From NCBI GenBank assembly GCA_945875435.1, contig CAMCKH010000002.1:62001-126000 (forward strand): a stretch of DNA of 64,000 nt, written 5' to 3'. The DNA comes from an uncultured Erysipelotrichaceae bacterium (GTDB lineage: Bacteria; Bacillota_I; Bacilli_A; Erysipelotrichales; Erysipelotrichaceae). The notes beneath the pieces were generated by a model that was not told the origin of the DNA, did not search any database, and saw only the letters and a list, made by a program, of their open reading frames with translations. Shown one piece after another: positions 30,112 to 31,060 of the stretch (positions are counted from its first letter, which is position 1; each line of letters begins with the position of its first letter). A program made the position numbers and the translations under genes.

Positions 30112-30195
30112 GCATCAGTGGTGGAATGGTAGACACGCACGCTTGAGGGGCGTGTGAAGCAATTCGTGCAAGTTCAAGTCTTGTCTGATGCACCA
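30112..30195 (+). tRNA. tRNA-Leu (anticodon GAG)
   Basis: An 84-nt class II tRNA. Acceptor GCATCAG pairs with CTGATGC, the discriminator is A and the CCA is encoded. The anticodon stem CACGC/GCGTG closes loop TTGAGGG (anticodon GAG), a long variable arm follows (typical of Leu/Ser), and the T-arm is GCAAG-TTCAAGT-CTTGT. It reads CUC/CUU leucine codons. Confidence 0.96.
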
Positions 30196-30232
30196 TTTAT
30201 GAAAAAAGTCCCTAAAAATAGGGACTTTTTAT
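30184..30232 (+). repeat. Direct repeat copy A: tRNA-Leu 3' end plus terminator (att-like)
   Basis: 49 bp starting in the tRNA acceptor 3' strand (TCTGATGCACCA) and running through the terminator hairpin. It matches 30901-30949 at 47 of 49 positions. This is the layout expected for an attachment site of a tRNA-integrating element. Confidence 0.8.
30202..30232 (+). terminator. Terminator of tRNA-Leu
   Basis: AAAAAGTCCC TAAAAATA GGGACTTTTT hairpin with T-run, seven bases after the CCA. Confidence 0.85.
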
Positions 30233-30259
30233 TATTTAGCCACGAATTTTTGGTTTTTA

Positions 30260-30463
30260 TCACTCAATTTCTAAACCATCAATAACATTTATTAACCATT
30301 CTTTTTTACTTTGTTTAGTTTTAGTTAAATATGTTTGTAGTTTGTCAAAACTTTCATTTGGGATTATGATGTTAAGGGTTCTCCCGCCCTCTCTTTGTTT
30401 TCTTTGGTTTTCTCTCCAGTATTCTCTCATCAGTTCTTTAACTGACATTTCTTTATTATTCAT
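30260..30463 (-). CDS. Small ribbon-helix-helix-like protein, 67 aa
   Basis: A 67-residue basic protein. The N-terminal half (SVKELMREYWRENQRKQREGG) is a charged helix. The second half, RTLNIIIPNESFDKLQTYLTKTKQSKKEWLINVID (described: strand at about 29-34, helix about 37-48, helix about 51-62), has the strand-helix-helix layout of CopG/Arc-type DNA-binding proteins. A very strong AGAAAGGAG site precedes it by eight bases. It lies inside the tRNA-flanking island and a decayed copy of its second half lies at 30972-31060. A regulator of a small mobile or plasmid-like element is the likeliest role; antitoxin is an alternative. Confidence 0.7.
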   Translation of the reverse strand: MNNKEMSVKELMREYWRENQRKQREGGRTLNIIIPNESFDKLQTYLTKTKQSKKEWLINVIDGLEIE

Positions 30464-30477
30464 TTATGTTCTCCTTT

Positions 30478-30576
30478 CTATTTAACACCATTTCTTATAT
30501 GAATAAATAACATAATAGCAGTAATAATTATAAGTATAATTAATAATACTATTTGAATTATATCTAAAATTGTCAT
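30478..30576 (-). CDS. Small hydrophobic membrane peptide, 32 aa
   Basis: ATG 30576 to TAG 30478 encodes MTILDIIQ, then a run of Ile/Leu/Val/Ala (about residues 6-24), ending in HIRNGVK: one membrane helix with a positive C-terminal tail. A minus-strand TATAAT lies at 30605-30600, about 24 bases upstream. The ribosome-binding site (AAAGTAAAG) is weak. The stop is 14 bases before the RHH-like gene start, so the two could form one transcript. Size and composition resemble type I toxin or small membrane-regulator peptides, but no antisense RNA is proven. It could also be a chance reading frame in AT-rich DNA. Confidence 0.45.
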   Translation of the reverse strand: MTILDIIQIVLLIILIIITAIMLFIHIRNGVK

Positions 30577-30609
30577 ACTTTACTTTTTAATGAAAAACGA
30601 TTATACTTT

Positions 30610-30642
30610 AAGTAGCAGTTGGGTTTAGCACCCAACTACTTC
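30610..30642. repeat. Inverted repeat H2
   Basis: AGTTGGGT / ACCCAACT stem with loop TTAGC, extended by AAGT / ACTT. No T-run follows, so it is not an ordinary terminator. Confidence 0.65.
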
Positions 30643-30655
30643 TAGTATTTTAATA

Positions 30656-30688
30656 ATTAAAGTTAATATCGTGATTATTAACTTTAAT
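30656..30688. repeat. Inverted repeat H3
   Basis: Perfect 12-bp stem ATTAAAGTTAAT / ATTAACTTTAAT around a nine-base loop. Confidence 0.65.
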
Positions 30689-30691
30689 ACT

Positions 30692-30731
30692 AAAGCTATA
30701 ATTATATATTTATAATATAGCTTTTTTATTT
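30692..30731 (+). terminator. Inverted repeat H4, terminator-like
   Basis: AAAGCTAT / ATAGCTTT with an inner ATTATA / TATAAT pairing, followed by TTTTATTTT on the plus strand. No plus-strand gene ends upstream of it, other than the already terminated tRNA. Confidence 0.5.
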
Positions 30732-30784
30732 TGTCTTATAATCTCAAACTTTACTTTCCACATATTCTATTATATAATGGTGTT

Positions 30785-30815
30785 GTAACGGAAAAGGCTA
30801 AACCTTTTCCGTTAC
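30785..30815. repeat. Inverted repeat H5
   Basis: Perfect 13-bp stem GTAACGGAAAAGG / CCTTTTCCGTTAC with loop CTAAA. It is the strongest hairpin in the island and has no T-run. Confidence 0.75.
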
Positions 30816-30825
30816 TTTAAATAGT

Positions 30826-30888
30826 ACTCTTATCACTACTAGTTTTATTTCTATTTCTATGGTAGTAGTTGTTAAGAGTTTTTTATTT
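30826..30888 (+). terminator. Inverted repeat H6, terminator-like
   Basis: ACTCTTA..ACTACTA pairs with TAGTAGT..TAAGAGT around an 18-21-base loop, followed by TTTTTATTTT. It sits just before repeat copy B. Confidence 0.55.
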
Positions 30889-30900
30889 TCCTTCTCCATT

Positions 30901-30949
30901 TCTGATGCACCATTTATGAAAAAAGTCCTTATAAATAGGGACTTTTTAT
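30901..30949 (+). repeat. Direct repeat copy B: displaced tRNA-Leu 3' end plus terminator
   Basis: Matches 30184-30232 at 47 of 49 positions, with the first 28 bases identical. Upstream sequence is unrelated to the tRNA body, so this is not a second tRNA gene. The terminator hairpin is retained. Confidence 0.8.
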
Positions 30950-30971
30950 ATAGATACTAAATTTTATTATT

Positions 30972-31060
30972 AAACCACCAATAAACTTTTTACTTTGTTT
31001 AATTTTAGTTAAATGTTTTTATGCTTTGTTAAAACCTTTATTTAGAATTATTTCATTATT
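30972..31060 (-). pseudogene. Decayed fragment of an RHH-like gene
   Basis: Reading the minus strand gives I-L-N-K-G-F-N-K-A-stop-K-H-L-T-K-I-K-Q-S-K-K and then a shortened end. This lines up with the second half of the intact 67-aa protein (SFDKLQTYLTKTKQSKK) but carries a stop and a deletion of about 15 bases. It lies in the same position relative to repeat copy B as the intact gene does to copy A. Confidence 0.7.

Follow-up and report, generated by a model that had tools for sequence, protein, structure and literature searches.

How the 3' end of a tRNA-Leu(GAG) gene came to stand twice, 717 bp apart, on either side of a few small genes is the question raised by this locus, which was analysed in a window of 64,000 nucleotides (the whole stretch of DNA under study; positions given without a prefix refer to it) from a genome of 1.17 Mb in 20 contigs. 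The tRNA gene itself (30112–30195, plus strand; ARAGORN, Rfam RF00005) is intact and forms the integration target. A 49-bp direct repeat begins in the 3' strand of its acceptor stem (left copy, attL-like, 30184–30232, plus strand) and recurs with a start-to-start spacing of 717 bp (right copy, attR/attI-like, 30901–30949, plus strand), with 47 of 49 positions identical, exactly as a preliminary description of this DNA had claimed. The search for the 49-bp core that had been proposed there was run on the window with up to three mismatches allowed and returned these two copies and nothing else (0 in 100 shuffles). The repeat unites the tRNA 3' end with a terminator hairpin that is flanked by T-tracts on either side; in the left copy this hairpin (30203–30230; terminator scan; folding energy −15.5/−15.9 kcal/mol) serves both the tRNA on the plus strand and an operon with an RHH-like gene on the minus strand. 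The right copy, a displaced tRNA-Leu 3' end with an older terminator, includes the Leu-specific TCTGATG in direct orientation. The tRNA was the sole match above threshold in the Rfam scan, the others being AT-rich and below gathering scores.

All genes between the repeats lie on the minus strand and are oriented toward the tRNA. Proceeding from left to right, the following features were found: an intact RHH-like gene (30260–30463, 67 aa; ORF list, weak phrog_3896 match, dN/dS), ORF C for a hydrophobic, transmembrane peptide of 32 aa (30478–30576; ORF list, comparison of copies), a strong hairpin in the loop of which the hydrophobic frame 30625–30735 ends with its stop codon (approximately 30610–30642; z −4.7), the start of a truncated membrane-peptide gene (MWKVKFEIIRQNKKAIL*; 30710–30763; comparison with the tmRNA, Ala and Thr copies treated below), an RNA hairpin of 13–14 bp (30785–30815), and ORF A (30798–30899, 33 aa, MEKENKK...; ORF list, comparison of copies), the first gene of the operon, which directly adjoins the right repeat. 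In two of these places, a short ORF has its stop codon in a strong hairpin, the one at 30610–30642 being specific to the Leu copy in the alignment of copies and the one at 30785–30815, with the ORF A stop codon inside, being kept in five copies. The ORF list holds no integrase gene in the 717 bp. The RHH-like gene, small membrane peptide, strong hairpins and missing integrase of the preliminary description were thus all recovered from the ORF list and from folding; ORF A, the membership in a multi-copy family and a degenerate second match past the right repeat had been missed.

This second match is a block of 65 nt (30987–31051) with 83% identity to the 3' end of the RHH-like gene, within a decayed remnant that corresponds to the 3' part of such a gene (30950–31060, minus strand; similarity to the RHH-like gene). 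The right repeat thus opens a second copy of the element, one that has decayed. We consider the region to be the residue of two successive integrations of elements of the same family at the 3' end of tRNA-Leu(GAG), that is, of tandem accretion, with a probability of about 0.7. In this history, a first element would have integrated and then degenerated, whereas the tRNA 3' end and terminator that it had brought remained functional under selection. A second element, bringing its own tRNA-Leu 3' end and terminator, would then have inserted at the same tRNA end and displaced the old 3' end, its terminator and the remnant to the right repeat at 30901. A later deletion reaching up to the displaced repeat would have removed everything to the right of the second element's first ORF, leaving 717 bp devoid of promoter, ribosome site, recombinase and transfer genes. 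We infer that a tyrosine integrase performed the integrations.

Relatives of the unit were found at five further loci in this genome, namely at the tmRNA gene and at tRNA-Ala(TGC), tRNA-Val(GAC), tRNA-Phe(GAA) and tRNA-Thr(GGT). Each of the six loci abuts or stems from a tRNA or tmRNA 3' end, and together they account for six of the approximately 17 transcription-unit ends seen in a survey that covered search matches and retrieved genome stretches; the eleven tRNA/tmRNA unit ends free of the element have other terminators. tRNA-Leu(CAA), for instance, carries a similar and distinct terminator of host type and no element. The element-type terminator recurs at the tmRNA, Ala, Val and Thr copies. 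This distribution, with the Leu-specific TCTGATG in the right repeat, supports the site-specific integration into a tRNA gene put forward in the preliminary description. The Thr locus is rearranged: an element-type terminator and left-end sequence stand at the tRNA, and the remainder is found about 0.5 kb from there in inverted order. Intact RHH-like genes occur in the Leu and Ala copies; the gene is frameshifted in the tmRNA and Thr copies, cut short in the Val copy and absent from the Phe copy.

Several observations were made around these loci. The motif TAGCCACGAAT is doubled in the tRNA-Ala copy (TAGCCACGAATTAGCCACGAATTTTTG; L010:3070–3100), and CACGAATTTT flanks the inverted copy at the Thr locus on both sides; the doubled motif at Ala and the two-sided motif at Thr hint at recombination at this motif. 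A DUF7675 gene (L011:3332–3640, minus strand, 102 aa, E 2e-31, also phrog_6473) is located between the inverted copy and tRNA-Thr. A restriction-modification set (L060:12205–14896, contig C1) is located between the tRNA-Ala copy, behind which it starts at approximately 2.7 kb, and guaA; it consists of a Dam-family methyltransferase, a type II restriction enzyme and a second type II methyltransferase, with a GC content of 0.33–0.36 versus about 0.27; it could be cargo of the tRNA-Ala integration. Contig C12 starts inside the same tRNA-Met with which C10 ends, one tRNA cluster being split over the two contigs.

Read toward the tRNA, the operon of the better copies opens with a promoter/ribosome-site block, followed by a 33-aa ORF with the conserved RNA hairpin at its end, by the membrane-peptide gene and, last, by the RHH-like gene. 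A block of 38 nt is identical at the operon starts of the tmRNA, Ala and Thr copies and contains a TATAAT-like box and GGAGG ahead of the ORF A start codon. In place of this identical block (TTATTATATAATTATAGTATAGAAAGGAGGAAGAAATG), the Leu copy has tRNA sequence, the displaced tRNA end following directly after the ORF A start (junction CTCCATTTCTGATGCACC). The tmRNA and Ala copies have a common right flank of about 200 nt more, which ends in a gene tail (AKEIKIYRAKQHGCIIQLIK*). That the better copies run on past the right end of the Leu copy with the promoter/ribosome-site block and the upstream gene tail speaks for a deletion remnant, one of the two options that the preliminary description had offered. 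The deletion appears to have closed on a match of 3–5 nt (TTTCT/TCT). Closure on TCT or TTTCT would mean that the deletion may have set the left edge of the repeat, which does not then have to coincide with the crossover point. In the Leu copy, the start of the membrane-peptide gene is split from its C-terminal part; the other copies have a membrane peptide of 40 aa, the end of which is similar to the C-terminal part of ORF C.

The order of events was read from the divergence of the left and right copies, which were aligned with the tmRNA, Ala, Val and Thr copies, these four being used for polarising the changes. Left and right differ at 2 of 49 sites inside the repeat and at 32 of 122 aligned sites outside it (Fisher p = 0.001), a contrast that rests on few sites and gives p = 0.04 with the 65-nt block alone. 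Outside the repeat, 20 changes are private to the right copy, 0 to the left copy, and 12 are ambiguous. The right terminator is the Ala-copy allele. The asymmetry of decay, taken together with a near-perfect right repeat, fits a history in which the old element decayed first and the second one entered later. The same data bear on a simpler scheme, in which a resident unit was tandemly duplicated, independently of site-specific recombination, through the TTTCT/TCT shared by the tRNA 3' end and the ORF A start, the right copy decaying afterwards. Such a duplication would agree with the stretch of 3–5 nt common to both sides at the junction CTCCATTTCTGATGCACC and with the Leu-specific sequence in both copies. 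It predicts copies of equal age, however, whereas 20 polarised changes stand on the right against 0 on the left outside a repeat that is almost unchanged; the right copy would also have retained the native promoter and is nonetheless the decayed one, and its terminator is that of the Ala copy. We therefore regard a tandem duplication as unlikely.

The 717-bp unit might still be alive as a CIME-like or MITE-like minimal element, with excision and movement provided in trans by the recombinase of another element, which was the second option of the preliminary description; the predicted circle junction would be CTTCTCCATTTCTGATGCACCATTTATG running into TATTATTTAGCCACGAATTTTTGG. Both flanking repeats are present with 96% identity, the RHH-like gene and ORF A are open, and integrase-free ssrA islands have been proposed to be cis-mobilizable (PMC3146451). 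The state of the unit argues against this: the promoter and ribosome site of its operon are lost and its membrane-peptide gene is split. In addition, a search of the assembly for tyrosine recombinases (PF00589) gave only three proteins, all Xer-type. Neither a second copy of the 717-bp form in this genome nor anything similar in viral contigs was found, and no displaced tRNA end was found behind the other copies within the retrieved regions, the Leu locus alone keeping one. Mobilisation in trans is accordingly not supported, and we rate a live minimal element as highly improbable. The three Xer-type genes lie at the end of contig C4 (L062:11465–12355, minus strand), in a topA-trmFO context on C3, and beside a recN-like gene on C1.

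Relatives of the element were sought in several collections. The Leu copy has neither recombinase nor relaxase, and no such gene could be identified in the ORFs flanking the tmRNA and Ala copies. The assembly yielded no integrase, no relaxase and no intact element; if it is metagenome-assembled, mobile elements may have been dropped from it by binning. Homologues of the unit were absent from viral contigs (protein and DNA-pattern searches) and from phages and plasmids, and at the DNA level 60 relatives gave no match above chance-level AT-rich ones. In 19 more distant relatives with a similar tRNA-Leu, its 3' flank is unrelated sequence with different neighbouring genes, and these genomes therefore speak neither for nor against an empty site. 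The gene tail of the tmRNA and Ala copies has a single relative in 273 genomes of the family, a 98-aa ORF (54% over 35 aa, E 5.2e-7) located about 0.8 kb upstream of a MobC/NikA-family gene in another genome, and this one match of 35 residues is suggestive of an IME origin. The closest relative of the RHH-like protein (33%), likewise in another genome, has a Rha regulator, a resolvase and a helicase-loader-like gene in its neighbourhood. The two neighbourhoods, Rha/resolvase and MobC/NikA, and the weak phrog_3896 match of the RHH-like protein are thin affiliations with mobile elements. The family was probably a small mobilisable element or a satellite.

The element's genes were compared between copies. 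The RHH-like genes of the Leu and Ala copies differ with dS 0.25 and dN 0.025 (dN/dS about 0.1), and since the differences are mostly silent, these copies diverged while working. The protein has a weak match to phrog_3896 (E 4.6e-5, residues 20–62), no significant Pfam match, and no sequence or fold match in the PDB; its structural model is of moderate quality (pLDDT 71) and shows a helix, an extended stretch and a helix-helix unit, the fold comparison being uninformative. We infer that it regulates or maintains the element. In the ORF A hairpin, all 14 pairs are kept on the minus strand in the five copies, and G-U pairs become mismatches on the plus strand; with pairs intact on the minus strand only, the hairpin acts, if at all, in the operon RNA. 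Covariation alone is weak for these five sequences, 79 of 500 shuffles being equally good. The position of the ORF A stop codon in the hairpin suggests a role in termination or in translation coupling to the next gene. An attC-like DNA site was ruled out for the conserved hairpin, the pairs of which hold on minus-strand RNA and break on the plus strand.

Hydrophobic peptides of this kind resemble small membrane toxins in size. Host-maintained small operons beside tRNAs (for example, a toxin-antitoxin pair of peptide and RHH protein), with a common tRNA terminator and copied by ordinary recombination, were weighed as the source of the six loci. Such operons would be in line with the purifying selection on the RHH-like gene and with the fact that four to five copies conserve ORF A and its hairpin. 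The RHH-like gene, however, is broken, truncated or missing in four of the six copies, and a search of 273 family genomes yielded a single clear relative of the protein, which is distant and not at a tRNA (among 395 genomes of the class, a few weak relatives were found, the best-looking of which, L160, has no tRNA nearby). Furthermore, copying by recombination would not duplicate the Leu-specific tRNA end. Maintenance by the host was consequently judged very improbable.

Under two successive integrations, the age of the events can be read from the tRNA repeat, because the displaced end was preserved for as long as it was the working end of the tRNA and the element behind it was not. The signature of a displaced tRNA end is known, and the element family itself appears to be undescribed; the novelty lies in this family and in its having reached six tRNA/tmRNA genes of a single small genome, and apart from distant protein relatives the family was not found in the phage, plasmid, viral and species collections searched. 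It is tempting, though this reading is unlikely, to assign all six loci to a single family with a recombinase that recognises a generic tRNA 3' end (about CACCATTTAT plus terminator) in place of one particular tRNA. Such a family would have seeded at least five tRNA genes and the tmRNA gene, with repeated stacking at one of these sites, and would keep the invaded tRNA genes properly ended by means of its own bidirectional terminator. If one recombinase did serve all six sites, its specificity for tRNA ends would be unusually broad.

Among known systems, tDNA islands are recognised by a displaced fragment of a tRNA or tmRNA gene (the Islander principle, PMC4383910), and tRNA fragments as attR have been treated in PMC9897764. 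The Leu locus resembles these islands in having an intact tRNA on one side, a 3' fragment of the same tRNA in direct orientation on the other and foreign small genes between them, and its family also counts tmRNA among its targets. It differs in that the Leu unit comprises 717 bp only and has no integrase, so that the integrase requirement of Islander would exclude it. A MITE was ruled out, the ends being tRNA-derived and only the terminator palindromes facing each other. The 67-aa RHH-like protein has a weak likeness to phrog_3896, a phage family without curated function. CIMEs and the accretion of ICEs and IMEs are reviewed in PMC5704250, which cites Pavlovic 2004 and Bellanger 2011. In such accretion, one element decays and another then uses the target end that was retained for its own integration, so that a repeat comes to lie internally between the two, as is proposed here; by contrast, both elements at the Leu locus are decayed and no helper is present. 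As in a CIME, both att-like repeats are kept (47/49). The ORF list of the Leu unit holds no integration or transfer genes. The ssrA islands of Dehalococcoides are arranged in tandem, separated by direct repeats of the tmRNA 3' end, and some of them have no integration module (PMC3146451). The stacking on direct repeats and the absent integration module are shared with the Leu locus; unlike those islands, which use a serine recombinase and a single gene, the Leu family occupies five tRNA genes and the tmRNA gene. We class the Leu island as a decayed member of this broad kind, to which tDNA islands, CIMEs and ssrA islands belong.
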